DNA from: a virus
Virus record (IMG/VR): IMGVR_UViG_3300037838_000122
Location: 1 to 21,096 of that record
Direction: 5' to 3' (one strand)
Length of the DNA: 21,096 bases
Both the position numbers and the translations under genes were made by a program. A model generated the notes under the pieces. The model was given only the letters and a program-made list of their open reading frames with translations. It was not told the origin of the DNA and made no database searches. How positions within the stretch are numbered: position 1 is the stretch's first letter; each line of letters opens with the position of its first letter. Below are positions 1,015 through 20,764 of the stretch, one piece after another.

Positions 1015-3915
1015 CTATTTTGTCCTTTGTCGGAAGGTTGAAAGCTGCCTGAATGCTTTAATCCCTAAATGGCAGCAGTTCATAACGGCATACTCGCTAA
1101 ACACTTCAACCGGAGTAGCCGCAAAATTAACTCCTGTTACCTCATAGGAACCAGTAACCGTTACTGTATTGCCCGCAAGGTTGAACCCGTATTCCCCAGC
1201 AATAGACACTTCATTGCCTGTTTGTATCCCGTAAGAACCAGTAGCACTTAACGGAGTCCCCTCCACTACTACTGCATACAAGCCTGTGGCGGAAGCCTCT
1301 CCAGATGTGCCTACAGAATAATCTCCTGGTGCAGTGGACGCTATCCCACTGGCCGATACTGCGTAGGAGCCTGTGGCTGTAGCGGCAGTTCCACTTTCAA
1401 TGAATGCGTAGGAACCCGTTGCGGGAACTGGAGACCCCGTAGATATGACCGCATAAAACCCCGTAGCCGTGGCGGTTCCAGCCGCATCCACCACATAAGA
1501 CCCGGTGGCCGCAGCAGTTCTTCCTGTTGTCAAAACCCTATAAGCACCCGTGGTCGCAACTGCTATGGCCGTACTTATAACGGCGTATGATCCCCCTGCC
1601 GAAGCAGCACCAGAGGAAATGTTAGACACATCATAAGAGCAATTAACTCGGGACTCTGTTCCTTCTATAATAACTGCATAAGAGCCTATGGATGTTGCCG
1701 GAAGGCCAGCGGTTGTTGAAGCGACATCGTAGGAACTTAATACCGCAACGACTGTACCTGCAGACACAACAGCGTATGAACCTGTAGCAGTGAGCGAGCC
1801 AGCGGTTGTTGAAGCGACATCGTAACTACCCGTTGCTATAACTGCGGGTCCAGTAGAGACAACTGCATAGTCACTTACAGCAGTTGCAATATCCCCTGTC
1901 GCCATGACTGCGTAAGTGCTTGTAGCCGTGGATACATTGCCGACACCTGTAACGGCATAGTTCCCTGTTGCGGTTACGGGAATAACTGCGGACACAACAG
2001 CGTATGATCCAGCAGCGGCTACTGGCAACCCGGTTGCTGCAACTGCATAAAAACCTGTTGCCGTTACAGAACCGCTGGTTGTCGAAAAGATATCGTAGGA
2101 ACTTAATACAGCAACAGCCGTTGCCGGAGAAGTAACGGCGTAAGTGCTAGTTGCTGTAGATTCTGTCCCTACCGAAACAACTGCATACTCACTCGAAACT
2201 GCTACACCAGTGGGAGCATAGGCAACAGCATAAGAACCTGTGGCTGGAACCGCAGTTCCTGCGGAAACAACTGCATAAAAACCTGTTGCTGTTGCAGAAC
2301 CAGCAGTTGTCGAAGAAACATCGTAGGAACTTGATACAGCAACGGCAACAGCCGTTGAAGTGACTGCATAAGCACCTGTCGAGGCTGTCACTGGCCCGAC
2401 CGATGTCACCGCATAGTCACCCGTGGCGGCTGCCGGAAGGCCGCTGGTTGTTGACGACACATCGTAGGAACTTAATACGGCAACTGATGTTCCTGTAGAG
2501 GTGACGGCATAGGAACCTGTGGCCGTGGACACGGTGCCACTTGTTGTTGCTTCGACATCGTAGGAACTCAATAACGCAACTGATGTTCCTGTCGAGGTAA
2601 CAGCGTAAGACCCGGTTGCTGTTGTCACCGTTCCTGTCGAAGTAACGGCGTAGGAACCTGTGGAGGTCTCTACCGTTCCTGTCGAGGCAACTGCATAAGC
2701 ACCCGTGGCAGTTGTGGCTGTTCCCGCAGAAGTAACTGCGTAAGAGCCTGTTGCGGTTGCCAGAGACCCCGTAAGCAAGATCGCATAAGCACCCGTTGCG
2801 GGTACGGCTGTCCCTGCAGAAGTAACTGCGTAATCACCCGTGGCAGACACCGAGCCACTTGTTGTTACTTCGACATCATAGGAACTCAATAACGCAACTG
2901 ATGTTCCTGTAGCAGTCACCGCATAGTCACTCGTGGCAGTCGTCGGGCTTCCAGTGGAAGTTACTGCATAGGAGCCAGTGGCAGTGACGGGGGTTCCTGC
3001 GGTGGTGCCACCAGACAACTCGGCAAAAAACATCGACATTGAAATGCCAGAGTTGGTGTCTGCTCCCGTATCCCAACCGTAGTAGGAAGAACCCGTGGAT
3101 GTCCAGTTCCCATTGAAGGCAGAAAAAGACCCTGCCCCGCTATACTTCTTGAAAAACCATGTGAGTTGATGCTTGGAAGCGATAATCGACTGTCCACCAA
3201 TGGTTGTCCCGCTGAGGTGCCAAGTAGCCGTCGAGTCAACGCTCGTCGATCCGGTGCCCACCGGGCTTGCTGTTGGATCTATCGCTGTCCCTCTTCTGAT
3301 TGCACAGAAAAAGACATTCATAAACTCGTTGCCGACAGTCCCCAGTCTCCATGCACCAGAGAGTCCATTGTTGTCGCTGGGTTGTCGCCACTCATAATCT
3401 GCTTGGTCCGGCATAATAAACGATGAAGACCTGCAAGCATCTCTCATGTCAGTTTCAAGGGAAGTATCCGCTCCCCTGACCACGAAGCACTTGAGTTGCC
3501 TTGGAGCGTTGCCACCGCCGGAAGCAGACGCATCGGAATATAAAACGGTCTGAGCAGTACCTCCCGATCCTGCAAGTGCGTGACTACTGGTTATGGGCAA
3601 GACCCAGATCCCCATCGCCTGTCGCCCACCATTACTGGTCGCTCTCTGATAGCCAAAATCCAAGAAGTCGGCGGTGGCAGTCCCCCCGGCACTTGTCGTG
3701 TAACTAGCAACTTGACCAGTCACATGGATTGGATACCCGCCAGCATTACCCGGATCGAGACTATTGCCGTTTCTTTCTTCGGTATGCTGAAGCACTAGAT
3801 AATCGCCAGCAACCAAGGCACCTGTTGCTCCAACTGAGTCGATTGTCAGGCTCAACGAAGCCGAAGTTGCTGCGGCCTGTAGGTTGCCTTGTAGATCCAG
3901 CACCTCAAGTGCCAT
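1015..3915 (-). CDS. Giant repeat-built tail fibre / adhesin
   Basis: A 966-residue structural protein. The frame is open further upstream, but I choose the ATG at 3913-3915 because it overlaps the LamG gene stop (TGATGGCACTT), the same junction used between the decoration and protease genes. Residues 1 to about 305 form a globular domain rich in G, S, T, W and Y (for example LTWFFKKYSGAGSFSAFNGN, SSYYGWDTG). From there on, about 42 tandem units of 14-17 residues follow, with consensus G-T-x-V-x-A-T-G-S-Y-A-V-x-S-T, ending in a short tail with a Cys pair (NCC) and a basic end. Such Thr/Ser/Gly/Val repeats usually make an extended beta shaft. The N-terminal domain probably attaches to the virion or the ligand. 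Cell attachment is inferred from its place among tail genes. No family is recognised for the repeat. Confidence 0.7.
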   Translation of the reverse strand: MALEVLDLQGNLQAAATSASLSLTIDSVGATGALVAGDYLVLQHTEERNGNSLDPGNAGGYPIHVTGQVASYTTSAGGTATADFLDFGYQRATSNGGRQAMGIWVLPITSSHALAGSGGTAQTVLYSDASASGGGNAPRQLKCFVVRGADTSLETDMRDACRSSSFIMPDQADYEWRQPSDNNGLSGAWRLGTVGNEFMNVFFCAIRRGTAIDPTASPVGTGSTSVDSTATWHLSGTTIGGQSIIASKHQLTWFFKKYSGAGSFSAFNGNWTSTGSSYYGWDTGADTNSGISMSMFFAELSGGTTAGTPVTATGSYAVTSTGSPTTATSDYAVTATGTSVALLSSYDVEVTTSGSVSATGDYAVTSAGTAVPATGAYAILLTGSLATATGSYAVTSAGTATTATGAYAVASTGTVETSTGSYAVTSTGTVTTATGSYAVTSTGTSVALLSSYDVEATTSGTVSTATGSYAVTSTGTSVAVLSSYDVSSTTSGLPAAATGDYAVTSVGPVTASTGAYAVTSTAVAVAVSSSYDVSSTTAGSATATGFYAVVSAGTAVPATGSYAVAYAPTGVAVSSEYAVVSVGTESTATSTYAVTSPATAVAVLSSYDIFSTTSGSVTATGFYAVAATGLPVAAAGSYAVVSAVIPVTATGNYAVTGVGNVSTATSTYAVMATGDIATAVSDYAVVSTGPAVIATGSYDVASTTAGSLTATGSYAVVSAGTVVAVLSSYDVASTTAGLPATSIGSYAVIIEGTESRVNCSYDVSNISSGAASAGGSYAVISTAIAVATTGAYRVLTTGRTAAATGSYVVDAAGTATATGFYAVISTGSPVPATGSYAFIESGTAATATGSYAVSASGIASTAPGDYSVGTSGEASATGLYAVVVEGTPLSATGSYGIQTGNEVSIAGEYGFNLAGNTVTVTGSYEVTGVNFAATPVEVFSEYAVMNCCHLGIKAFRQLSTFRQRTK
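1084..2997 (-). repeat. About 42 tandem 42-51 bp coding repeats (15-residue units)
   Basis: The C-terminal two thirds of the fibre gene is a tandem array averaging 15.2 codons per unit over 638 codons. There are two kinds: a common 14-15 residue 'TGSYAVTST' type and a longer 17 residue 'SSYDVSSTTSG' type placed irregularly among them. DNA divergence is uneven. Positions 2536-2592 and 2854-2910 match at 55 of 57 bases (differences at 2549/2867 and 2560/2878), and 1705-1731 equals 1798-1824 over 27 bases, which suggests recent internal duplication or conversion. Confidence 0.9.
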
Positions 3916-5054
3916 CAGGTCACCGTCAGTTCTACTGTCAGCGTTCCTGGACTCTGGCATTTGGTCACATAGAAGGTGATCTGCTCACCTTGGGCTGCAC
4001 TGTAACTGACGGACGGACTCACCCCATAAGTGCTTGCACAAGTGATGTCTGTTGCCAATAGATACGACGAAGCATAGGGGTCTGTCGATTTGTATGGGTG
4101 AGCCGCCGGTAGAGAGTTGGAAGCCCCTGACCCCCAGTATTTATGGGCTAGATATCCTTCGATCTTCTGCCTGATTTCAGTGGAGACTACACCCTCAAAG
4201 AAGATCAACTCAGAGATGGTACCGTTCAATCTCCGTAACTGCGGGGATCCGCCTCTATCTCTTCCGAGGACAGCCATCCCGTTGTAGGTCCAGCCTCCGG
4301 TCAAAGAGTTTATCGTGATAGACTGATCGGTATATAAAGCGGTGCCGTCAACCCACTCAGACAAAATGGATTTTGTACCGGTATCTTCCCCACACACCAA
4401 TACTCTCATTTCGTCGTTGCCGAGGTCTGGGTCTTGATAGTTAAATTCATTCCCTGAGTCGTTCCTCACTCTGAGGTCTCCCCCTTTGTGGCCCCAGGTC
4501 GAGTTCCAGGCAGTGTCCCCGATGTCGTATGTGCCAATTATTGGAGAATTGTTAGACGATGTGTAATCTCCGATCACTGCAAACACAGAGAAAGCCGCAT
4601 CGTAAGGAAGAGAGTAGGTTCCTAAGTAGCCAGTGAGGTACTGCGTTCCGTCGAAGTCGATGCCTTCGTTTGAGCCGGGACCAGTTACCGTCTTGTAAAG
4701 AGGCTCATCCCCTGAAGATGTCTGCCTGAAAACTGCCTGATCTTTATCCCACGACCTCCATACACTAACGGCATCTCCATCAGAGGCACCGGCAGGGGAG
4801 CCAACATCCTCGGCCCTGAAGTGCCAGAGCATTTCCCCATTGTCGTCGTAATCAGAATCATCCATGAGGGGGGCATTCGGTGTACTCATCTTCAGGTTGA
4901 AGGCAGCAGTACCCGAAGAAATCTTGGCTCGGACTCCAGTGATGGTCTTGCCGGAACCACGCCAAAGAGCTGTTGATCCAACGGCACCATGACTCGTCAA
5001 ACCGGGATGGCAGTTTTCAAAGGTGTACTCATAAACAGCCATTTCACCGCCCAT
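3915..5054 (-). CDS. LamG/concanavalin-like domain tail fibre protein
   Basis: A 379-residue virion protein with a laminin-G/concanavalin-A-like jelly roll in the middle (about residues 85-320). Visible marks are the 'LWHFRAEDV' opening, the 'GIDFDGTQYLTGYLG' strand pair, 'AAFSVFAVIGDY', and the closing 'ISELIFFEGVVS..RQKIEGYLAHKYW....LPAAHPYKS', a signature of LamG domains in fibre and surface proteins, which commonly bind carbohydrate. Residues 320-379 form a beta-rich tail. The start could be the ATG at 5054 or the one four codons later (5042, MAVYEY), and neither has a strong ribosome site. It lies just before the repeat fibre with a TGATG junction, so the two are probably co-translated and may form one appendage. 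Host receptor binding is inferred. Confidence 0.7.
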   Translation of the reverse strand: MGGEMAVYEYTFENCHPGLTSHGAVGSTALWRGSGKTITGVRAKISSGTAAFNLKMSTPNAPLMDDSDYDDNGEMLWHFRAEDVGSPAGASDGDAVSVWRSWDKDQAVFRQTSSGDEPLYKTVTGPGSNEGIDFDGTQYLTGYLGTYSLPYDAAFSVFAVIGDYTSSNNSPIIGTYDIGDTAWNSTWGHKGGDLRVRNDSGNEFNYQDPDLGNDEMRVLVCGEDTGTKSILSEWVDGTALYTDQSITINSLTGGWTYNGMAVLGRDRGGSPQLRRLNGTISELIFFEGVVSTEIRQKIEGYLAHKYWGSGASNSLPAAHPYKSTDPYASSYLLATDITCASTYGVSPSVSYSAAQGEQITFYVTKCQSPGTLTVELTVT

Positions 5055-5088
5055 CTTTCTCTTCTATAGCACTGGTTGTGAAAGATAG

Positions 5089-5128
5089 ATCCCCGGAGAG
5101 ATCGGAGGTGTAAAATCCCTCCGGGGAT
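5089..5128 (-). promoter_or_regulatory. Intercistronic hairpin between structural and fibre genes
   Basis: ATCCCCGGAG (5089-5098) and CTCCGGGGAT (5119-5128) form a perfect 10-bp inverted repeat with a 20-base loop, in the only sizeable gap (5055-5148) of the left block. A competing shorter stem is possible: CGGAG (5103-5107) can pair with CTCCG (5119-5123). On the minus-strand transcript the hairpin is followed by UCUAUCUUUC, a weak U-rich tract. It may act as a leaky terminator, an RNA-processing site or a stability element lowering fibre expression relative to capsid. Confidence 0.6.
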
Positions 5129-5148
5129 TGGCAAAGAAGATATCAAAA

Positions 5149-5562
5149 TCAGTTCAGGGTGAGTGTGAGGTTCCCCAGACTGATTTTTGCTTGGTCTCCA
5201 TTTCCGACAGTGACACTGCTGATCGCAGTGTGGAACAAGATTGTTCCAGCAGTCGTGTTCACTGTCCCAGTGTTACAAATTGCGATGTGGGTGATTGCCC
5301 CCCAGCTAGCAGTGGCAGTTGTCCAGGTGATGTCAGCATTAGAGGTCGCAACCCTCAGTGCTGGATTCACCGTGAATGCTCCCGCCAGTGCTTGCCTGGT
5401 GTATGCACTGGCGGTGGTGGTTACCTCATTTGCTGGGGTGCCGTCAGACCCTGGATCTCCAGTAAAGAGACCGATGTACAAGGCTCCCGCTCCTGTAACA
5501 GCATTCCCCTCGATCAGATAATCAAGGACATCACCAGCACCCGTGACAGTGAAATCAGTCAT
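5149..5562 (-). CDS. Gp80-like phage structural (tail/fibre-associated) protein
   Basis: A 137-residue protein matching a widespread phage structural family: N-terminal 'DVLDYLIEG', 'LYIGLFTGDPGSDG' (28-41), 'NEVTTTASAYTRQAL' (45-59), 'SNADITWTTATASWGAITHIAI' around 74-95, and a C-terminal 'GTILFHTAI....VGNGDQAKISLGNLTLTLN'. Family members (Gp80-like in cyanophage and mycobacteriophage-type genomes) are small beta-rich virion proteins of unsettled exact place, variously named tail or head fibre. The gene follows the capsid gene and has an exceptionally strong ribosome binding site, so high expression is likely. I am confident of the family pattern and less so of the role. Confidence 0.65.
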   Translation of the reverse strand: MTDFTVTGAGDVLDYLIEGNAVTGAGALYIGLFTGDPGSDGTPANEVTTTASAYTRQALAGAFTVNPALRVATSNADITWTTATASWGAITHIAICNTGTVNTTAGTILFHTAISSVTVGNGDQAKISLGNLTLTLN

Positions 5563-5563
5563 T

Positions 5564-5574
5564 GATCACCTCCT
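5564..5574 (-). promoter_or_regulatory. Extended Shine-Dalgarno for the Gp80-like gene
   Basis: The minus strand reads AGGAGGTGATC six bases before the ATG, counted from GGAGG. This matches 11 bases of the sequence complementary to the usual bacterial 16S rRNA 3' end, and it overlaps the capsid gene stop codon (TAG at 5573-5575). It predicts very high translation and coupling to the capsid gene. Confidence 0.8.
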
Positions 5575-6511
5575 ATGTGAGAACATTCTGGATGGCGTAC
5601 TGCCAGTAAGCAGTGCCGACATTCCGAGAAACCTTGACCCCGTACTGATGCATATCAGAGTTGAACTCGAGGTCAGATCCTTCAGCCAGTGCAGTGATCT
5701 GTGGAGCAGTCTCCTCCTGCAAGATGAATGACTTGCTCGGGGAGTCTGCACGGAACAGATAAAAGGTCACAGCATTTGTGAGCCTGGGATTCACCACAAA
5801 ACTCACATTGTATCCAGCCAGGTTCACTAGGGTATTCGTCCTGGAGGAACTGCCATCAACGATCACGGAGTCAGTCAATGCTGCTGCTGTAACAGAGAAC
5901 AGAGCTGCTGGAACCATACAAACAAAGTTCCGAGCCTCTGTGTTCATTGGCTCACCCTGATCATCTTTGAATCCAAGAGCCTGTTGGATAGCTGCGATGA
6001 CCGCAGATTCCATCTCAGCTGCTGTGGGAGTAGATCCAGCCATCGCTGGAACCAGAGCATTGTCCTGGGTTCCGCTGTCACCCTCAGTGTGACCAGTTCC
6101 GAAGAATGCAGTTCCATCGTAAGCATTCCCAGGAGTGACGATGAGATCAGTGAGAAGTTTGGTCCAGTGCTGCGATGCTCTGACTGCCAACTCCGAGATT
6201 CTCAGCTGGATCTGGTCGGTTTTGTCTCGACGAATCTCCTCGACAAGCACCTGCAAGGTACTCTCAAAACGCTTGTTTTGGATGGTGATTCCGTTGGTGC
6301 GGAATCCTTTGGCATTTCGACCACCCAGCCATTCTGTGAGTGGTGCGGTCATTCCGAGCCATTTGTATTCTTCGCTGGATTGATTGCTGGCGACACTCAT
6401 CGCAATCGCATCCACCCATCCTGGAGGAGAAGTTTCCTCCAGAGCTGTGGCCAGTCGTCCGATGATCGCTCTCGATCCGAGGGGAGCTGCTCCACCTGTA
6501 AAGTCTGCCAT
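5573..6511 (-). CDS. Major capsid protein, Mu gpT-like
   Basis: A 312-residue shell protein. The arrangement 'YKWLGMTAPLTEWLGGRNAKGF' (about 49-70), then 'NGITIQNKRFESTLQVLVEEIRRDK' and 'QIQLRISELAVRASQHWTKLLTDLI' (about 100-124), is the hallmark of the Mu-like major head subunit gpT family (HK97 fold). The family also typically has the 'YDGTAFFGTGHT' segment and the C-terminal 'GVKVSRNVGTAYWQYAI' seen here. The length fits Mu gpT (about 305). A preceding AAAGGG serves as ribosome site. It sits between decoration and tail-side genes, as expected. Capsid identity is strong by sequence pattern and synteny. Confidence 0.85.
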   Translation of the reverse strand: MADFTGGAAPLGSRAIIGRLATALEETSPPGWVDAIAMSVASNQSSEEYKWLGMTAPLTEWLGGRNAKGFRTNGITIQNKRFESTLQVLVEEIRRDKTDQIQLRISELAVRASQHWTKLLTDLIVTPGNAYDGTAFFGTGHTEGDSGTQDNALVPAMAGSTPTAAEMESAVIAAIQQALGFKDDQGEPMNTEARNFVCMVPAALFSVTAAALTDSVIVDGSSSRTNTLVNLAGYNVSFVVNPRLTNAVTFYLFRADSPSKSFILQEETAPQITALAEGSDLEFNSDMHQYGVKVSRNVGTAYWQYAIQNVLT

Positions 6512-6537: not shown

Positions 6538-6954
6538 TTAACGGTTGCTGACTGCATCCGCTGAGAAGTAAACCTGGCAAGTGGTGCCAGTGACATGACG
6601 CAAGACCTTGCCGATTGGCAGGTTGTCGGTCGAAGTCAGAGTGAAAGTTCCATCGTCTGTTGCGTAGACCGCTACGCCAACAGAAGCAGCTGAGGCACCA
6701 ACCGCATCGATGGTCACCACTCCCTGGGAAACAACTCGAACCTTCTCACCACCAGAAGCAGTGGAGACAATACCCCGTAAGGCAAATCCACCAAATCCAG
6801 AGGTGCCGGTTCCGTCATAGGGTTGAGCCAACCCTGAAGCCAACTCAATGCATGAGCCTTCATAGGTGGTCGTACTCGCAACCGCTGTGATGTCATTGAT
6901 GACAGGCTCAATCCCTGCCTCATAGGTCCGTGCAGTGTCTGCTGCAAGTGCCAT
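6538..6954 (-). CDS. Head decoration protein
   Basis: A 138-residue Gly/Ala/Thr/Val-rich beta protein located between protease/scaffold and capsid, the position of decoration (gpD-like) genes. The sequence 'GSCIELASG.AQPYDGTGTSGFGGFALRGIV' followed by 'VRVVSQGVVTIDAVGASAASVGVAVYATDDGTFTLTSTD' and 'IGKVLRHV' resembles small capsid cementing proteins that accompany gpT-type shells (DUF2190-like set): a beta-barrel with 'GvavYatDDgtft'. It should stabilise the expanded capsid from outside. The start ATG overlaps the protease stop by one base (TGATG). Confidence 0.65.
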   Translation of the reverse strand: MALAADTARTYEAGIEPVINDITAVASTTTYEGSCIELASGLAQPYDGTGTSGFGGFALRGIVSTASGGEKVRVVSQGVVTIDAVGASAASVGVAVYATDDGTFTLTSTDNLPIGKVLRHVTGTTCQVYFSADAVSNR

Positions 6955-7397
6955 CAGATTCTCCCATCAGAGGGTTTGATCGATCCCCCAGAGATTCCTT
7001 TTTTGTAATTGATGTAGAACTTGGACTCTCCAAATTCTCCCTGGATGTTCTTGTCATTCTGGAACTCTGCAAGCCAACGATCCTCATCATTCATCGGAGT
7101 CTCTTCGACCTCGACTTCCATCCCAGCTGGTGCCGGAGATTCAGTGATGATGGTGGAGAGTCGATCTTCCATCCTGGACTTGACATCAGAAAGCAATGCT
7201 CCCTGTGCCTCTTCCAAACTGACTCCACTCTCGATGAGGTTCTTTGCCAGTTCATCTTGCCCGGTACATTTGGCACTCAGGATCTGGCTGATCCTTCCCC
7301 GCTCCTTCTCAACAGCAAGCTCTACATCGCTCTTTGTTGGGATTGCTTCTTCCGTGATCTCTGGTTCGAGATCTACTGGCTCGAGATTGTCGGACAT
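6954..7397 (-). CDS. Nested in-frame scaffold protein (internal start)
   Basis: An internal ATG at 7395-7397 (Met200 of the protease gene) is preceded on the minus strand by AAGGAGG at 7403-7409 with a five-base spacer, as good a ribosome site as any in the window. It would yield a separate 147-residue acidic protein, MSDNLEPVDLEPEITEEAIP to the common C-terminus, rich in E and predicted helix (about residues 22-80). This is the layout of lambda C and Nu3, where the scaffold is translated from inside the protease gene. The start is seen in the sequence; expression is inferred. Confidence 0.65.
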   Translation of the reverse strand: MSDNLEPVDLEPEITEEAIPTKSDVELAVEKERGRISQILSAKCTGQDELAKNLIESGVSLEEAQGALLSDVKSRMEDRLSTIITESPAPAGMEVEVEETPMNDEDRWLAEFQNDKNIQGEFGESKFYINYKKGISGGSIKPSDGRI

Positions 7398-7994
7398 CTG
7401 GTCCTCCTTGATGGTTGAAACTGTGTAGACCGAAGCCTCCACAGTTGATGTCTCATTTGAAAGAGACACCGCATGTGTATTCTCATCTGCCCCAAGAGCT
7501 GTGAATGTCACTTCTCTGAGCCAGGATTTCCGGAATATATGCCCTGGACCGTCCAGGGTGTTTCCGTTTACTTCTGCTGTTTTGCCTTCTGGCACTTTTT
7601 CGATGCTATCTGGTGGGATGTAGATCGAGGCTTGCCAGGGGAATCCTTCACGAGCCATCGCCAGAACTTCTCTGCCGTCCTCAGTGGTCTCAGTGAAGAA
7701 CCCTTCTGCAACTAATCCCTCAGGGGTCTTCTCAATCTTGTCTGTGAATCCAACCACCCTGCCTGGATCGTGATCTCTTAGTGCCGGTTTTCGTTGCCGA
7801 CCTATGCGGATTCCATCCATATCGATTGCGAAATTCTGCCAGAATGCGTGTTTCTCAATCACCCCTCCTGAGTTGGCTACCATCCGGAATCTTGGCTTGT
7901 CTCCTTCTGGCTCTGCCATTTCAAACCGGAACATATCCCCACCATCGCTCAACCGCAGTGCTTCAGTGGGGATGGTAATCTCTTCTTGCTTCAT
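6954..7994 (-). CDS. Prohead protease-scaffold fusion
   Basis: A 346-residue protein with two parts. Residues 30-180 resemble a phage prohead maturation protease: 'ALRDHDPGRVVGFTDKIEKTPEGLVAEGFFTET' (candidate catalytic His75) and 'REGFPWQASIYIPP' (candidate Ser123), then 'SWLREVTFTALGADENTHAV', the usual end of the U35/HK97-protease-like core. Residues 200-346 are acidic, helical and low in aromatic residues, as in scaffolds. The protease would process scaffold and capsid inside the prohead. It overlaps the portal stop by four bases (ATGA). The catalytic assignments are read from position in motifs, not from an alignment. Confidence 0.75.
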   Translation of the reverse strand: MKQEEITIPTEALRLSDGGDMFRFEMAEPEGDKPRFRMVANSGGVIEKHAFWQNFAIDMDGIRIGRQRKPALRDHDPGRVVGFTDKIEKTPEGLVAEGFFTETTEDGREVLAMAREGFPWQASIYIPPDSIEKVPEGKTAEVNGNTLDGPGHIFRKSWLREVTFTALGADENTHAVSLSNETSTVEASVYTVSTIKEDQMSDNLEPVDLEPEITEEAIPTKSDVELAVEKERGRISQILSAKCTGQDELAKNLIESGVSLEEAQGALLSDVKSRMEDRLSTIITESPAPAGMEVEVEETPMNDEDRWLAEFQNDKNIQGEFGESKFYINYKKGISGGSIKPSDGRI

Positions 7995-9532
7995 GGAGTC
8001 TCCTCAACTGTTGGGATGCCGAATTCCGCTTCCATTTCCTGAATCTTCCTCTTCTCGATGGCTCTCTGTTCCAGCAGGTCAGACCAATCCCTTCCCTGAC
8101 TAGCTGCCTCCTCTGCCAGCGTTGAAACTCCCAAATTGATGGCAGCCTCGCTTGCCTGGGCCTCTTTCAAGGGGTCCACCCATGCCCACCCTGGAGGAAT
8201 CCATCTGGTCTTGGTCAACTCCATCCTGGATTGATCGAAATCCACAAACGGAATCTCACCCTTTAGCCATGCTTCCTCGATGAGCATTTCATAGATTGGT
8301 TGGCAAAATCTCGAGCAGAGGTACTGCTGATGCCGTTTGAACATCCTTCTGGATTCCAGAAGAGCTGCCCTGGCACTGGAGTAGTTGGTTTTGGAAAAAT
8401 CATTTGTAACCAACTCGAGGGGGAGACCCAGAGAAGCACCGATGGCTCTCAGGTGCCGCTCGACAAATGGATCAAATGTGTTCCCCACATTGGTTGGATT
8501 TCCGAATTGGACAGTCTCACCAGGGGAGAGGTACTCAACCATCCCCGGTTCAATCTCATTGATCCGCTGGCCAGATCGAGTGGCATCCGCTCTCTGGAGT
8601 GCCGCTGAGTACGGATCGTCCTTCTGAATAAACATACTGAAACAACAGCTCACTCGCTCTTTTATCAGACTGGCTTCAAGAAAGCTGGACAGATCCCGGA
8701 AGGTTGCCAGTGCTGGACTGAGCATCGGTTCTCCCCGAGTTTGTCCAGGTCTCCTTCTGTTCATCAGATGGATGATATTCGGTCTCCCATTTGGAGCCTT
8801 GGATGAATATCTCCTCCACTTTCTCTTGCTGCTTCTCTCGTAGATTCCATCGCCTGGGTGACTGACCCTGATCCAATATGCGATGGGTTGTCCACGCTTC
8901 CCCAGCTCGATACCACTCCTGAGGTTGGTTCTTCCGTTTGGATGATCGATGTTGTTCTTGCTCTCACATCGATCAGCTTCGATCACTTCCAACGCCAACC
9001 CGTAAGGTCTCCCAGGATCCTGCACCATCGTTGGAATGATGAATACTTCACCATTGGTGAGCATCTGTTTTTGGATCAGAGCCTGAATCCCATAGAAGTC
9101 TTCCTGGTCAGTAGCATCGGCAAAGGCTACCCACTTGGACCAAACCTTCTCACAGGCTGATCTGACCTCTTCTGCTTGATCTCTCGTAAGCCCTAGACCT
9201 TCAGCATTGGCTAGGCTCTGAGGCTTGATCCCATTCCCGATGACATTATCAACAAAGGACTGGGAGATGCTCGCAGCATGAGGATCATTCCGGATCAGGT
9301 CTCTGGATCGTTCTCTCAGGGTGTCTAACTCTGGGAGCAGATCTGCATCTGCACTGCCTGGTGAGACGCTCCAATTGCTTCTGGGTCGATTGCTCGATGC
9401 TCCCTTGTATGAGGAGAATCGGTCTGAAGAGCTGACCGCATCCCTTGCAAGTCTTCTCCTCAATGCTCTCAGTGGTGAGAAGACCCCGATGGTGTTGTCG
9501 ACCAGGTTGGAGATGGTAGATGAGAGATTCAT
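7991..9532 (-). CDS. Portal protein, lambda gpB family
   Basis: A 513-residue dodecameric portal through which DNA enters and leaves the head. Family marks include 'ELDTLRERSRDLIRNDPHAASISQSFVDNVIGNGIKPQS' (about 68-106), the pattern of lambda-type portals (phage_portal_2), then 'IEADRCESK', 'GIELGKRGQPIAYWI' and 'VSHPGDG', 'IIHLMNRRRPGQTRGEPMLSPALATFRDLSSFLEASLIKER' (about 250-290) and 'PGMVEYLSPGETVQFGNP', 'LGLPLELVTNDFSKTNYSSARAALLESRRMFKR'. The length is normal for the family (about 500-530). The ATG overlaps the gpW stop by four bases, and the stop overlaps the protease start. Confidence 0.92.
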   Translation of the reverse strand: MNLSSTISNLVDNTIGVFSPLRALRRRLARDAVSSSDRFSSYKGASSNRPRSNWSVSPGSADADLLPELDTLRERSRDLIRNDPHAASISQSFVDNVIGNGIKPQSLANAEGLGLTRDQAEEVRSACEKVWSKWVAFADATDQEDFYGIQALIQKQMLTNGEVFIIPTMVQDPGRPYGLALEVIEADRCESKNNIDHPNGRTNLRSGIELGKRGQPIAYWIRVSHPGDGIYERSSKRKWRRYSSKAPNGRPNIIHLMNRRRPGQTRGEPMLSPALATFRDLSSFLEASLIKERVSCCFSMFIQKDDPYSAALQRADATRSGQRINEIEPGMVEYLSPGETVQFGNPTNVGNTFDPFVERHLRAIGASLGLPLELVTNDFSKTNYSSARAALLESRRMFKRHQQYLCSRFCQPIYEMLIEEAWLKGEIPFVDFDQSRMELTKTRWIPPGWAWVDPLKEAQASEAAINLGVSTLAEEAASQGRDWSDLLEQRAIEKRKIQEMEAEFGIPTVEETP

Positions 9533-9777
9533 AGTCCAGAACTCATATCAGTAGAGACTCCAGCTCCTGGGGAATCGAAATCCACATAGTTCCTGGAACC
9601 ACCACCACCAGCTGCCTTCTGCTTCAGGAGATCTTTTCGCAGTTCGATCAGCTCAGAGAGTTTGTACCTGGCAACAGATCTGCCATTGATCTCATATTCT
9701 CGAACCGCTCCACCTGTGATGATGGAGTCGATAGCATCGTCCAGTTGTTGGATTCTGGTCTCAATTGCTGTTGCCAT
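9529..9777 (-). CDS. Head-tail joining protein, gpW-like
   Basis: An 82-residue protein in the lambda W position, between terminase and portal. 'RIQQLDDAIDSIITGGAVREYEINGRSVARYKLSELIELRKDLLKQ' matches the small gpW/gp6-type family: an N-terminal helix, a beta hairpin carrying the 'G.avr.ye.nGRsv.Y' pattern, then a second helix. The Gly-rich C-terminus (KAAGGGGSRN) is probably disordered. gpW joins the filled head to the tail at the portal. The 3' end overlaps the portal start (ATGA). Confidence 0.85.
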   Translation of the reverse strand: MATAIETRIQQLDDAIDSIITGGAVREYEINGRSVARYKLSELIELRKDLLKQKAAGGGGSRNYVDFDSPGAGVSTDMSSGL

Positions 9778-9823: not shown

Positions 9824-10015
9824 TCAGTTTGGACTTTCAGCCTCGATGGATCTGAACTTCAGTTCACAGTCCCTGCACTGGTGATATCTCAGCCTCCCCT
9901 TTTTCCCGTAGGCTCGCTGGTTCCCAGAGTGGCATTCTGGACATCTGACCGGCAAGAAATGCACTGTGGGTCTGTAGTCATCTCCTCGAGCATTACTTCC
10001 ACTGATCCAGCTCAT
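9824..10015 (-). CDS. Small zinc ribbon protein
   Basis: A 63-residue protein starting MSWISGSNARGDDY. I take the ATG at 10013-10015 because it overlaps the terminase stop (ATGA); the longer open frame upstream lies inside terminase and is not credible. Residues 25-58 form a two-knuckle zinc ribbon: CPEC at 25-28 and CRDC at 47-50, separated by a basic stretch (GKKGRLRYHQ), with 'LKF' after it. This is the typical 'C..C....r.Gk.g.lRy.C..C...F' DNA-binding ribbon of transposase-linked and phage Ogr-like regulators. It may bind DNA at packaging or regulate late genes. No close named family is recognised. Confidence 0.7.
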   Translation of the reverse strand: MSWISGSNARGDDYRPTVHFLPVRCPECHSGNQRAYGKKGRLRYHQCRDCELKFRSIEAESPN

Positions 10016-11997
10016 TTCAACCACCCCCCTTCCCTCTTGTTTGATCTCGATTCCCCTGTCACCCAGCTTCCCCCTTGTGCCCTGGACCGATGCTGCCTGT
10101 CTGATATCACTGGAGATGTTGGATCGTGAACTGGAGAAGGCTCCTGGATCTCCTCCTTTAGTGTGTAGACCGCAATCATGTCTGCTGCTGCCATGGCGTA
10201 GACCTCGCAATCCAACCAGTGGTTTGGGCCTCCACCTGGCTTGGGAACCCATGCAGACTTGCTCAGGCCCGTCTTCCTGTCCCTCTTCAGCACCTTATGC
10301 TCTGAGGTTACCTGCCTCAGATACTCTTCATGAGGATCCCTGTGAATCCTCCAGGCTCCTGGTTGCTCATCAGAGGTATTCTGGAGCCTGACCAGCTTAT
10401 CCTTGAAGTGGGATGTATCGACATGCCAGAGCCTGATCGACCCCTTAAACGGAGTCCCTGAGAAGTCCCTGTCAATCTTGACTGCTCGTATTGGAACCCC
10501 GCTGATGGTTGCTTGACCCTTGATCGGTCTTGCGAGTTCCATCCACTCCCTGCAAGTGGTGTAGACCTCATCTGTCCTGTATCCAGAGTCAATGCAGGTC
10601 AGTCTGATCCTGTGCTTGGTCCCATCTTCTCCTGGGAAGGTGTTCTGGAAGAGGTGCCGCACGAGACCCTCCCAGGATTCAATCCTTCCAGCCTCGACCA
10701 ACCAGCTCCGCTCCCCGATCCCCCAGGCTCTGATGGAGTAGTAGAAGACATCCTGCTGGACATCCACTCCAGCTGTGAGAACCACTGCCCCCTTGGGAAC
10801 TGTTCCTCGATCATAGGATGCAGCTCTGGCAGCAATCGCCTCTGGACTGATCTTCTCAGCGACATCCTCCCAGATGTGACCAAGCCAACCATTCACAAAC
10901 CCGAGGAGAGCTGGAACATTATCCTTGGCTGCAAGGAACTTGGCTGCAACCTCTGAGAAGGTCAGCCAGGGAGAGTACAGAGCATTGAGCCTGAACCCTC
11001 GATGGGTTGTCGATTTCACACCCTGGACAGTTCCATCCGCTTCAACCTGCAAACCTTCTGGAACCCACACCCCTTGCTTGAGCATTCTTGGTTTGTCCTG
11101 GTCGGTAATCTCAGCCTCGCAGTGGATGCATTCATAATGTGCAAGCCTGTGATCTTTGATCCTCACAGGATCCCGCTCATCCTCTGGCCACTTGATCGAC
11201 CTGAACTCCATGACCTGAAACTGGAGACACTTTGGGCAAGGGACATGGTAGAGACTTCGATCCGACTTCTGGTACTCGCTCCAGATATATCCTTCTCGAT
11301 CTGTTGGAGTGCTGCACAAAATGATTTTCCGGTTGTGGAATGTTCGAGTTCTCTCCACTGCCAGGGTGATGGGGTCAGCTTCTCTCCCTGAAAATGCTGG
11401 ATACTTATCGACCTCATCGCAGAACAAATACCGGATGGGTCTCGACGCTAGATCCGCTGGAGAGCTGGCACCGGCAAAGTAGAGCATCGAACCTGCGAAC
11501 CTGATTTCCTTTTTCTTGTTGTCTGTTTTCCGCTCGCTCAAATGTCTTGCCAACCTGGGTGAAGACTCGAGCATCGGTCTCACTCTGCGAGTGGACATCG
11601 AGACTGTATCTTCTTCTCTTGGCATGACCATCAGGATTGGTCCAGGGTCTTGATCGATTGCGTACCCAAGACAGTTGAGGATGGTTTCTGTTTTGCCCAC
11701 CTGGGTAGAGCTGCAAATCGTGATCTGTTCCACCATAGGATCTGAAAACGAATTCATGATCCCTGCCAGGTATGGAGTTCTATCCGTGGTCCATTTCCCA
11801 CTCTCTGCTGATGTCAGATTCGACAATAGGCGATGCTTGTCGCTCCACTCTGAGACTGTGAGATCTTCTGGTGGTGCCCAGGCAATTCGTTCTCGCTCTG
11901 TCCATTGGACTGTGATGCTTGCTGTGACCCTTCCAGAGTTCCCCTTTTTTTGGCGTACCCGCAGAATACCCGAATAGTGCCCGAATTCACACAGCAA
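10012..11997 (-). CDS. Terminase large subunit, GpA family
   Basis: The ATP-driven motor and nuclease that cuts and packages phage DNA. Counting from the TTG at 11997 (661 residues): 'WAPPEDLTVSEWSDKH' (about 39-54), the N-terminal tryptophan motif of GpA; Walker-A-like SSTQVGKT (96-103); Walker-B-like FCDEVD (192-197); a zinc-binding pair CPKC/CIHC (254-257, 290-293); then the nuclease part with GVDVQQD (Asp412), CIDSGYRTDEVY (Asp470) and NHWLDCEVYAMAAADM (Asp596). The length fits lambda gpA (641). The start is unsure: the frame is open to 12234 across the divergent gene, no ATG or GTG lies close before the W motif, and no good ribosome site is seen. Confidence 0.9.
   Translation of the reverse strand: MLCEFGHYSGILRVRQKKGNSGRVTASITVQWTERERIAWAPPEDLTVSEWSDKHRLLSNLTSAESGKWTTDRTPYLAGIMNSFSDPMVEQITICSSTQVGKTETILNCLGYAIDQDPGPILMVMPREEDTVSMSTRRVRPMLESSPRLARHLSERKTDNKKKEIRFAGSMLYFAGASSPADLASRPIRYLFCDEVDKYPAFSGREADPITLAVERTRTFHNRKIILCSTPTDREGYIWSEYQKSDRSLYHVPCPKCLQFQVMEFRSIKWPEDERDPVRIKDHRLAHYECIHCEAEITDQDKPRMLKQGVWVPEGLQVEADGTVQGVKSTTHRGFRLNALYSPWLTFSEVAAKFLAAKDNVPALLGFVNGWLGHIWEDVAEKISPEAIAARAASYDRGTVPKGAVVLTAGVDVQQDVFYYSIRAWGIGERSWLVEAGRIESWEGLVRHLFQNTFPGEDGTKHRIRLTCIDSGYRTDEVYTTCREWMELARPIKGQATISGVPIRAVKIDRDFSGTPFKGSIRLWHVDTSHFKDKLVRLQNTSDEQPGAWRIHRDPHEEYLRQVTSEHKVLKRDRKTGLSKSAWVPKPGGGPNHWLDCEVYAMAAADMIAVYTLKEEIQEPSPVHDPTSPVISDRQHRSRAQGGSWVTGESRSNKREGGWLK
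11953..11985. repeat. Three imperfect 11-bp direct repeats at the TerL 5' end
   Basis: GCGTACCCGCA, GAATACCCGAA and TAGTGCCCGAA abut with an 11-bp period. The core is (A/G)CCCG(A/C)A. They sit at or just inside the uncertain start of terminase, next to the divergent gap, so they could be an operator with sites on one DNA face, or only chance coding similarity. Confidence 0.4.
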
Positions 11998-12095
11998 ACA
12001 GGGGTGCAGAAACCCGGTGAATAGGTAGACTAATGGTTCCGGTTGCGGTATCTTTATTGGTGTTGGACATGGGGTCTGACAGAACTGGAGGAAAC
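11998..12095. promoter_or_regulatory. Divergent intergenic region between TerL and the plus-strand module
   Basis: About 98 bases separate the likely TerL start from the first plus-strand gene. Promoters for both the late minus-strand operon and the plus-strand module should lie here. I see no convincing sigma-70 -35/-10 pair in either direction, which would fit phage-specific or activated transcription. Only the ribosome site CTGGAGG (12085-12091) before the ATG at 12096 is clear. Confidence 0.4.
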
Positions 12096-12494
12096 ATGAA
12101 GGACAGAATCGAAAAGCAAACAGAAGAGGATCAGGAAATGGATGAGTACACCCAGCATGAGGTGATCTCTGAGATGAGTGAAGAGGAGAAGGTCGAGAAT
12201 GACATCGCTGGTTGGGGTGATACACCTGAGACAACCGACACTCATCTTGTATGGGTCTTCAATGAGAACTGTTTGATGTCCGGCAAGCCTTGGATGACCA
12301 ACCTGAAAACCAGCGACTCATGCCCCATGTTCGTTCTCAATGAATGGCGATTCTCTCCGGAGCAGTTGGGAGACCTTGAAGACACCTTCAAAGATATCTT
12401 TGGAGACGATTTTCCTGCTGGAGATGTCCACTACTTGACTGGAACCAGAGAAGAACTGGAAGCCAAGATCTATGGAGAAGGAGAACAGGCATGA
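12096..12494 (+). CDS. Acidic hypothetical protein, first gene of plus-strand module
   Basis: A 132-residue protein of unknown function. I choose the ATG at 12096 (MKDRIEKQTEEDQEM) over the ATG of an upstream extension because CTGGAGG sits five bases before it. The first 40 residues are strongly acidic and probably helical or disordered (EEDQEMDEYTQHEV, EMSEEEKVEND). Residues 50-132 look folded: 'HLVWVFNENCLM', 'CPMFVLNEWRFSPEQLGDLEDTFKDIFGDDFPAGDVHYLTG'. No membrane segment or signal peptide is seen. The end overlaps the next start by four bases (ATGA), so the two are coupled. High acidity and small size recall DNA-mimic or anti-defence proteins, but that is only a suggestion. Confidence 0.65.
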   Translation: MKDRIEKQTEEDQEMDEYTQHEVISEMSEEEKVENDIAGWGDTPETTDTHLVWVFNENCLMSGKPWMTNLKTSDSCPMFVLNEWRFSPEQLGDLEDTFKDIFGDDFPAGDVHYLTGTREELEAKIYGEGEQA

Positions 12495-15160: not shown

Positions 15161-15886
15161 TCATCTCTGTGCAGTCTCTCCAGTCAGGGTCTCCCACCGC
15201 TCGACGATCACATCGCAGTATCTGGGATCGATCTCCATGCCGTAGCACTTCCGCCCCAGGTTGTCGGCGGCGATCAGCGTTGTGCCGCTGCCGAGGAAGG
15301 GGTCGTAGACCAGCCATCCACGCTTGCTCGAGTTCTTGATGCACCGCTCGATCAGTGGAATGGGTTTCATGGTCGGATGTTCTTTGCTCGCTGATGGCCT
15401 TGGGCATTCCCATACTGTTGTCTGGGTTCTGTCGTCGATAAAGTAATGCCCAGCACCTGGCTTCCAACCGTAGATGATCGATTCGTGTTGATAGTGGTAA
15501 TCTGCTCGTCCTAACACCATCCGATCCTTCACCCATGCGATTTGATGTTTAGGTGCAAGCCCTGCGATATCGATGCCAGTCCAAAATCTAGAATACGGCT
15601 CCCCAGGAGGTGCGAAGATGTAATACGCCGATCCAGGGGTGAGTGGTGCGATTGCCATCGAACTATTGATGATCAATTCGGTTTCATCCAATGTGAGGTT
15701 GTCATTTTGAACAATCAACCCATCTGGTCTTTTCGTGAATTCATCCCCTCGATAGGCGATCCCATATGGCGGATCCGTCACCATCAACTGGGCCACCTCC
15801 CCACCCATCAACCGCTCGACATCTTCCGCCTTTGTGGAGTCGCCGCAGAGTAGGCGATGGCGAGACCTGACCTGGAGGCTACCCAT
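15161..15886 (-). CDS. DNA methyltransferase, beta class (N6A or N4C)
   Basis: A 241-residue amino-methyltransferase that transfers methyl from SAM to adenine N6 or cytosine N4. The ATG at 15884-15886 overlaps the ParB-like gene stop (ATGGGTAG). Motifs: 'LLCGDST' (12-18), catalytic DPPY (38-41, motif IV), 'EHPTMKP' (169-175), SAM-binding DPFLGSGTT (195-203, motif I), GMEIDPRYCD (216-225). Motif IV before motif I marks the beta class. The length is that of the compact catalytic unit with no large target-recognition domain. It probably protects the phage from host restriction. In many phages this unit is fused behind a ParB domain; here it is a separate but coupled gene. Confidence 0.88.
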   Translation of the reverse strand: MGSLQVRSRHRLLCGDSTKAEDVERLMGGEVAQLMVTDPPYGIAYRGDEFTKRPDGLIVQNDNLTLDETELIINSSMAIAPLTPGSAYYIFAPPGEPYSRFWTGIDIAGLAPKHQIAWVKDRMVLGRADYHYQHESIIYGWKPGAGHYFIDDRTQTTVWECPRPSASKEHPTMKPIPLIERCIKNSSKRGWLVYDPFLGSGTTLIAADNLGRKCYGMEIDPRYCDVIVERWETLTGETAQR

Positions 15887-16478
15887 CGCAGCACTCCTCC
15901 CCGACTCTGGCTGGATCGTAATCCTGCCGCTTGCCACACGCATCACACTCGAGGTATGCCCCGAAGAGAATCAGATCGCCAGGCTTCGTGATCGGCTCCA
16001 CTGGTGGCTCCGGGATTGGGCCTTCTTCTTCTGGTTCTTGATCTCTTGGGATGTCAGAGAATAAATCTTCAAGATCATCGTCATCAAATCCGACATCCTC
16101 TATCGTGAACCCTGAATCCTCATGAAGAGAATCAACCAGCTTCTTCAATGCCGGTGTATCCCACTCTGCTAGTTCAGCTGTTCTGTTATCTGCGATGGCA
16201 TAAGCTGTGGCAGTCACATCGTCATCATCAATGATCAGTGCTGCAATACGAGTCCACCCCAGAGACCTGGCAGCTTCCCATCTCGCATTCCCTGCCCTGA
16301 TCACCATGTTGGACTTCTGGACAACCACAGCAGCTCTCTGGCCAAATCGATTCAGGCTCCTCTTAACAGCATCCAGGTTCTTGGTCCCGTGCAATCTGGC
16401 ATTTGCTGGGTCAGGATTCAGAGAATCCAAATCAACTGCTAGATGCCGCAACCCTTCCATGATGTGGGTGTCTGACAT
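15879..16478 (-). CDS. ParB/Srx-type N-terminal domain protein with Cys-rich tail
   Basis: A 199-residue protein. The ParB-like fold covers about 10-110: 'VDLDSLNPDPANARLHGTKNLDAVKRSLNRFGQRAAVVV', then 'VIRAGNARWEAARSLGWTRIAALII' (59-83) with the conserved G-N-x-R box, then 'AYAIADNRTAELAEWD' (92-107), typical of phage ParB-methyltransferase proteins. After an acidic linker and Pro-rich 'EEEGPIPEPPVEP' comes 'ITKPGDLILFGAYLECDACG', a point where homologues run straight into the methyltransferase; here it becomes a CDAC...CC tail and stops. It lacks the true ParB partner-binding helices and probably acts with the methyltransferase. The start overlaps the SSB stop (TAATG). Confidence 0.8.
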   Translation of the reverse strand: MSDTHIMEGLRHLAVDLDSLNPDPANARLHGTKNLDAVKRSLNRFGQRAAVVVQKSNMVIRAGNARWEAARSLGWTRIAALIIDDDDVTATAYAIADNRTAELAEWDTPALKKLVDSLHEDSGFTIEDVGFDDDDLEDLFSDIPRDQEPEEEGPIPEPPVEPITKPGDLILFGAYLECDACGKRQDYDPARVGEECCDG

Positions 16479-20570: not shown

Positions 20571-20764
20571 CTTGGTCCTTTCGGTTCACCAGGCGTGTAC
20601 TCCTTCTGGTATTCAGCAGTTGTATCCAGTGCCTCCCTGAGGATCTTCTTTGACCACTCGATCAACTCTGGAGCAGTGGCCAAGCCAGTGGCCTCCAATC
20701 CCTTGAGATCCTTCTTGATCGTCCTCAGCTCTTCCTTGGTGAGGTTTGGCCAGATCCTTCTCAT
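20567..20764 (-). CDS. Small helical protein, paralog of its neighbour
   Basis: A 65-residue protein, MRRIWPNLTKEELRTIKKDL then KGLEATGLATAPELIEWSKKILREALDTTAEYQ and a Pro/Gly-rich end. It consists mostly of two helices. AAGGAGG at the proper distance precedes the ATG, among the best ribosome sites in the window. Its core aligns with the C-terminal domain of the next gene, so the pair appears to come from duplication. It lies twelve bases after the primase stop. Function unknown. Confidence 0.6.
   Translation of the reverse strand: MRRIWPNLTKEELRTIKKDLKGLEATGLATAPELIEWSKKILREALDTTAEYQKEYTPGEPKGPS

Follow-up and report, generated by a model that had tools for sequence, protein, structure and literature searches.

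Scaffold genes that start in frame within a prohead protease gene are known from several tailed phages. In the Mu record, Z is annotated as a scaffold that starts inside I, after AGGAG, and adjoins gpT. Passages on gp28/gp29 of the Mu-like phage KS10 describe an in-frame scaffold start in the protease gene (PMC2628397), and those on PaMx73, also Mu-like, report that such an internal site was sought and found (PMC4378225). Mu I/Z, KS10, and PaMx73 share three traits with the locus described here, namely an in-frame scaffold start after a ribosome site, a C-terminus common to both products, and a gpT-type capsid gene that follows. A scan for ATG starts in eight Mu-like I genes identified, past the protease, an ATG preceded by a site of four to seven bases in five of them (Mu, L112, L114, L115, and L116) and no such site with an ATG in the other three (L110, L111, and L113). 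In phage lambda, C and nu3 are also nested, and the genes from portal to capsid follow the order B, C/nu3, D, E.

The herpesvirus UL26/UL26.5 genes are described as encoding a protease, a linker, and a scaffold, with a further gene, nested in frame, for the scaffold alone (PMC4498786; PMC12474303). The short herpesvirus form comes from its own promoter and transcript according to a study cited in PMC4498786, whereas a ribosome site within one message is proposed for the locus described here. In T4, the protease gp21 and the scaffold gp22 are separate genes, which sets T4 apart from this locus; the T4 record also annotates an internal start near the beginning of gene 21 (L109:2449-3087), which is a different use of internal initiation. 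Fusions of protease, scaffold, and capsid are described for MD8-like phages, with a ClpP-like protease in the fusions of MD8 and F10 (PMC8508860). A fusion is also reported for Microbacterium cluster EE phages, in passages that mention no internal start (PMC7302621). Given the descriptions for Mu, PaMx73, MD8-like phages, and Microbacterium phages, the nested or fused arrangement is already known.

The window, meaning the whole 21,096-nucleotide stretch of viral DNA that was analyzed (IMGVR_UViG_3300037838_000122), contains a head gene cluster (Table 1) that is transcribed in the order terminase, joining protein, portal, protease/scaffold, cement, and capsid. The true start of the terminase probably lies downstream of the TTG given in the open reading frame (ORF) list. 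The 21,096-base record showed no end repeats, and no tRNA genes were found in the window. Downstream of the capsid gene there is a 981-residue ORF (1015-3960, minus strand) that consists mostly of degenerate ATGSYAVTSTGT-type repeats. The protease-scaffold gene sits between the portal and decoration/capsid genes, as nested protease/scaffold genes do, and overlaps both neighbors, its ATG with the portal stop (ATGA) and its TGA with the cement ATG (TGATG). An initial annotation of this DNA had placed an AAGGAGG, an ATG at codon 200, and a 147-residue frame beginning with MSDNL within this gene, and all of these coordinates are correct on the minus strand. The spacer between AAGGAGG and the ATG is ACCAG (5 nt), and the nested frame ends at the same TGA (6956-6954, minus strand) as the full-length gene.

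Table 1. Head genes of the window and features of the protease-scaffold gene (positions in the window; energies refer to anti-Shine-Dalgarno pairing).
Feature	Position	Strand	Basis or remarks
Terminase large subunit, gpA type	10012..12234	-	PF05876, PF20454
Head-tail joining protein, gpW-like	9529..9777	-	phrog_5774, phrog_118
Portal protein, lambda family	7991..9532	-	PF05136
Ribosome site of full-length protease, GAGGAG	8000..8005	-	5 nt before ATG, -9.3 kcal/mol
Protease-scaffold gene, 346 aa	6954..7994	-	phrog_3244 head maturation protease, E 3.3e-22, residues 39-184
Protease domain, residues 33-177	7464..7898	-	model
Linker, residues 178-217, contains Met200	7344..7463	-	pLDDT <50 at 180-182 and 192-217
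Internal ribosome site, AAGGAGG	7403..7409	-	-11.4 kcal/mol; kept in relatives
Internal in-frame ATG	7395..7397	-	codon 200 of 346-codon gene; kept in relatives
Nested (putative scaffold) frame, 147 aa, 16.2 kDa, net charge -16, pI 4.3	6954..7397	-	begins MSDNL
Predicted scaffold helices, residues 221-285	7140..7334	-	model
Predicted C-terminal helices, residues 303-336	6987..7088	-	model
Capsid cement/decoration protein	6538..6954	-	PF09956
Major capsid protein, Mu gpT-like	5573..6511	-	PF10124

The window resembles lambda in its nested arrangement and in the gene order from portal to capsid. It differs from lambda in both the protease and the capsid, as lambda C has an S49 peptidase annotation, whereas the window protease is predicted to have the T4 gp21/assemblin fold and the capsid protein is gpT-like. 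The initial annotation had treated the neighboring Mu gpT-like capsid as a departure from the nested scheme, a contrast that is misplaced because Mu itself has the Z start within I, adjoining gpT. The differences from Mu are instead the cement gene between scaffold and capsid and the lambda-type portal and terminase, which are features of the window, as well as the protease, which has no detectable profile similarity to Mu I. A search of the window record at E 1 found no member of the Mu-like protease I family (PF10123), and membership in the Mu I family was rejected after an hhalign comparison of 62 relatives with eight Mu I-like proteins (probability 0.3%, E 0.19).

An AlphaFold model of the full-length protein, based on 62 aligned sequences, has a mean pLDDT of 82; an earlier model from 14 sequences was poor (mean pLDDT 55) and was set aside. 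The best structural match of the protease model is T4 gp21 (5jbl; Z 11.0, rmsd 2.7, 129 residues), and the top match among herpesvirus assemblins is the varicella-zoster protease (Z 9.4, rmsd 2.7, 111 aligned). Foldseek also matched the model to the herpesvirus protease fold (E 4.9e-5), all 16 PDB chains that it found at E ≤ 0.001 are herpesvirus proteases by title, and the predicted viral structures that match the model are prohead proteases. The modeled fold of the window protease is thus that of T4 gp21 and the herpesvirus assemblins, a type that groups the S21, S77, and S78 proteases. Ser123 is invariant and His75 is at least 90% conserved among the 62 sequences, and both residues may be catalytic. 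The window protease itself has no match in Pfam, including PF04586 (Peptidase S78, HK97-type prohead protease), although 19 of the 62 aligned members match PF04586 at E ≤ 0.05 (best 1.5e-5). An S49/ClpP-type domain was not matched in Pfam either and is absent from the fold list, which in itself is no proof of absence, and a search of PDB sequences with the alignment returned chance matches only (best E 1.7). The likeness to herpesviruses seen here is one of the modeled protease fold and the gene plan. According to the initial annotation, Met200 lies exactly where the protease ends. Met200 is indeed past the protease, but the modeled protease ends at about residue 177 and Met200 is located within the linker.

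The window by itself is suggestive and does not settle whether the internal site exceeds chance. The minus strand carries four copies of AAGGAGG and the plus strand none, and two of the four copies precede an ATG, at 7397 and at 20764 (the start of another ORF). The pairing at the internal site is the second strongest among 63 in-frame internal ATGs in eleven window ORFs, and it is stronger than at the starts of the protease, cement (-7.3 kcal/mol), and capsid (-5.3 kcal/mol) genes. The strongest pairing among these internal ATGs is at 15784, within a methyltransferase-like ORF, and is probably due to chance, which shows that chance sites do occur. The ORF in question (15161-15946, minus strand), named by eye from a DPPY motif, directly follows a ParB-like ORF and has two strong sites, one ahead of ATG 15886, where the ORF probably begins, and one ahead of ATG 15784 in the motif region. 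Synonymous shuffling of the window gene generated a match of at least six bases in 32% of shuffles because the linker encodes Lys-Glu-Asp, and a match of at least five bases in 52%. A seven-base site at this position, which the initial annotation regarded as unlikely by chance, is less improbable than was supposed. Moreover, the RNA openness at the internal start of the window is only at about the 90th percentile. As the window is only suggestive, the case for a site beyond chance is carried by the comparative data.

The composition of the linker also bears on a different origin of the scaffold, in which the scaffold part is freed only by protease cleavage of the full-length protein and the site match simply follows from the acidic Lys/Glu character of the linker ahead of a Met, as Lys-Glu-Asp encodes the motif in frame. 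In P2 gpO, the scaffold part is released by protease cleavage of the full-length protein. P2 is also named, in passages on MD8-like phages, as having protease and scaffold in one gene (PMC8508860), and the absence of the site from about a third of the relatives (18 of 59 junction ATGs in the first set and 18 of 57 in the second set, described below) would agree with release by cleavage. We consider this origin unlikely in view of the comparisons that follow.

Virus contigs and genomes were scanned together with the window and one phage record, and a protease match was obtained in 103 of 105 sequences. The protease was located by profile; a fixed-motif anchor had missed 57 loci. The non-redundant set retained 64 loci (≤95% identical over the protease end), of which four with short tails (L015, L024, L050, and L102) were left out, so that the first set comprises 60 loci including the window. 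Class A has a protease and a tail of ~130-210 residues (n = 31, window included), and class B has a protease and a tail of ~290-560 residues (n = 29, with some tails truncated where the contig stops). In the four class B members that were scanned, this tail terminates in a capsid domain, either gpT-like or PF25209. A further 168 loci came from two scans with profiles and three with single proteins; of these, two truncated loci (L123 and L220), 104 redundant loci, and one locus with a short tail (L167) were dropped, leaving a second set of 61 loci that are ≤90% identical to the earlier ones. The allowed spacing of the ribosome site was 3-10 in the 60- and 61-locus counts and 3-12 in the initial scan. 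Some relatives (L006:4554-6059, L007:4608-6068, L008:4548-6059, L009, and L010) have an N-terminal extension of ~100-160 residues (MPYPNEHSARL... or similar), which is absent from L011-L014 and the window and which contains a CxxC zinc-ribbon-like stretch in L006-L008.

An in-frame ATG is located 5-30 codons past the protease in 30 of 31 class A loci and in all 29 class B loci (59/60 in total), whereas of the 26-codon control windows, taken at 23,451 positions, 38% contain one. A ribosome site of at least five bases accompanies this junction ATG in 16 of 30 class A loci and 25 of 29 class B loci (41/59), compared to 10 of 532 other in-frame ATGs (Fisher P 2e-39); this and similar P values treat the loci as independent and are overstated, the loci being related. 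Where a locus has several junction ATGs, the best one was scored, which introduces a slight bias toward the junction. The sites also outnumber those expected from synonymous shuffling, with 16 versus 8.3 in class A (P 8e-5) and 25 versus 14.6 in class B (P 5e-8). In the second set, a junction ATG is present in 57 of 61 loci, and a site of at least five bases is present at 39 of these 57, compared to 18 of 355 control ATGs (P 5e-27). Shuffling predicts 16.6 sites for the class A loci of this set, where 36 of 51 have one, and 2.5 for its six class B loci, where three have one. These data confirm, at the level of sequence comparison, that the internal site is more than chance.

The initial annotation had proposed the internal site in relatives as a check, and no loss was found in close homologues. 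The site is kept in L004, which is 93% identical to the window protein, in altered surroundings (TAAGGAGG), and AGGAGG is kept in L029 (63% identical). In the more distant L031 (46% identical), a GTG with GGAGGT is located four codons past an ATG that has no good site. A junction ATG is missing from five of 121 loci (1/60 and 4/61), and in the one from the first set (L025) a GTG with AAGGAG is found instead. Eleven class A loci form a group without a good site; when they are aligned, the Met column is invariant, whereas the rest of the linker varies. The idea that siteless loci belong to viruses using few ribosome sites was not supported, since their other genes show no clear deficit (29% versus 40%).

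Compared with other parts of the same genes, the RNA folds more weakly at the internal start (-7.6 versus -13.9 kcal/mol; 59 loci, P 1e-10), and the open RNA was found again in 53 of 57 loci of the second set. It is also more open in the eleven loci without a good site (-9.4 versus -16.2 kcal/mol, P 5e-4).

A natural split of the gene was identified in an Omnitrophota contig (L024), where the protease (5016-5540) and a 99-residue scaffold ORF (5537-5836) are separate and AAGGAGG is located 7 nt upstream of the scaffold ATG. Over 170 residues, the L024 protease shares 46% identity with the window protein, and the L024 scaffold ORF is 41% identical to the nested part of the window over 37 residues (E 4e-7). 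Unless the two ORFs are joined by a frameshift, the scaffold in L024 begins like any ordinary gene. The two genes overlap (ATGA) with a six-A run at the joint (L024:5500-5560), and slippage there could yield a protease-scaffold fusion. L050 was considered as a second natural split and was not counted because breaks interrupt its gene at more than one point. The retention of the ATG in both sets, the frequency of sites above that of other in-frame ATGs and above the synonymous expectation, the open RNA at the internal start, and the scaffold of L024 starting as its own gene all argue against release by cleavage alone.

We estimate a probability of about 0.87 that one reading frame yields two proteins, a protease-scaffold and an internally initiated scaffold, in a manner similar to lambda C/Nu3. 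This reading builds on the site, its conservation, the domain layout, the protease fold, and the gene order, as observed or predicted here; by analogy with lambda, Mu, and herpesviruses, the short protein would be made, in excess, and would function as a scaffold. The proposal of the initial annotation, a nested scaffold start like that of lambda C/Nu3, is strongly supported by the conservation of the start, while the product and its scaffold role are extrapolated from known systems. Initiation at 7994 would produce the 346-residue protease-scaffold fusion in a small amount, and initiation at 7397 (AAGGAGG-ATG) would produce the 147-residue acidic helical scaffold without the protease, probably in excess because the internal ribosome site is the stronger of the two. 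The scaffold and the gpT-like capsid protein would then co-assemble into a prohead, with the C-terminal helices (residues 303-336) as the candidate capsid-binding end. As both products carry the same C-terminal part, the fusion would enter the prohead with the scaffold through this shared part. Once the shell is complete, the enclosed protease would cut the scaffold and itself, allowing DNA to enter. In herpes simplex virus, the protease-bearing form is reported to contribute only around 10% of the scaffold (PMC12474303), which is the kind of ratio that a weaker first start and a stronger second start may produce.

The internal start could also be used to make a protein other than the main scaffold, one that regulates the protease, acts as a decoy for it, or belongs to an internal core. 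The C-terminal part matches no named scaffold family (phrog_4523 only, E 0.028), and its sequence varies among the relatives, as might be the case for such a protein. However, the position and size of the nested product match those of Nu3 and Z, the window has no other scaffold candidate between portal and capsid, and in 29 relatives the corresponding part sits between protease and capsid within a single chain, as a scaffold domain would, so that a non-scaffold product appears quite unlikely. An even more remote proposal is that the RNA openness and ribosome site serve inter-domain ribosome pausing or coupling to the cement gene, which would fit the open RNA at loci without a good ribosome site but not the conservation of a correctly spaced ATG, which pausing does not need.

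With an internally initiated scaffold as the preferred reading, the window gene is an ordinary example of its kind, with good support, and belongs to a wider pattern. A literature search, which had most subscription journals outside its coverage, found no description of internal starts in the window-type protease family, of the wide conservation of the start, or of its persistence in capsid fusions. Gene finders call one protein at this locus, and the scaffold is therefore missing from the annotation of the virus family of the window. Comparison alone can reveal nested scaffold starts of this kind, and the present case connects phage proteases of the assemblin type with the logic of nested genes seen in herpesviruses.

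The phrog_4523-type fusions of class B resemble the window in their homologous protease, their internal ATG (29/29), and their ribosome site (25/29), and they differ from it in that the capsid is in the same chain. With an internal start, L062, L067, L095, L101, and the remaining 25 loci of class B would produce scaffold-capsid as a free chain. Protease-capsid fusion genes, for which the protease dose has been unexplained so far, are thus predicted to make a shorter capsid chain as well. A broader and rather doubtful extension would be that a large undescribed lineage uses the UL26/UL26.5 plan, with an assemblin-fold protease and a nested scaffold dosed by an internal site, and that the capsid fusions keep the site and thereby make rare protease-scaffold-capsid chains and abundant scaffold-capsid chains. 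Such a scheme could amount to a general rule of protease dose in tailed phages, possibly derived from a common ancestor of phages and herpesviruses.

Fusions with a ClpP-type protease also have candidate internal starts; F10, mEp043, and one Paenibacillus phage were examined. In F10 (L106:1388-3469), an ATG with AGGAG is located at codon 220, and in mEp043 (L108:1451-3466), an ATG with AGGA is located at codon 211, in both cases right past the protease part. One Paenibacillus phage has an internal ATG with AAGGAG at codon 204. The F10 and mEp043 genes suggest that the same solution is used with an unrelated protease.
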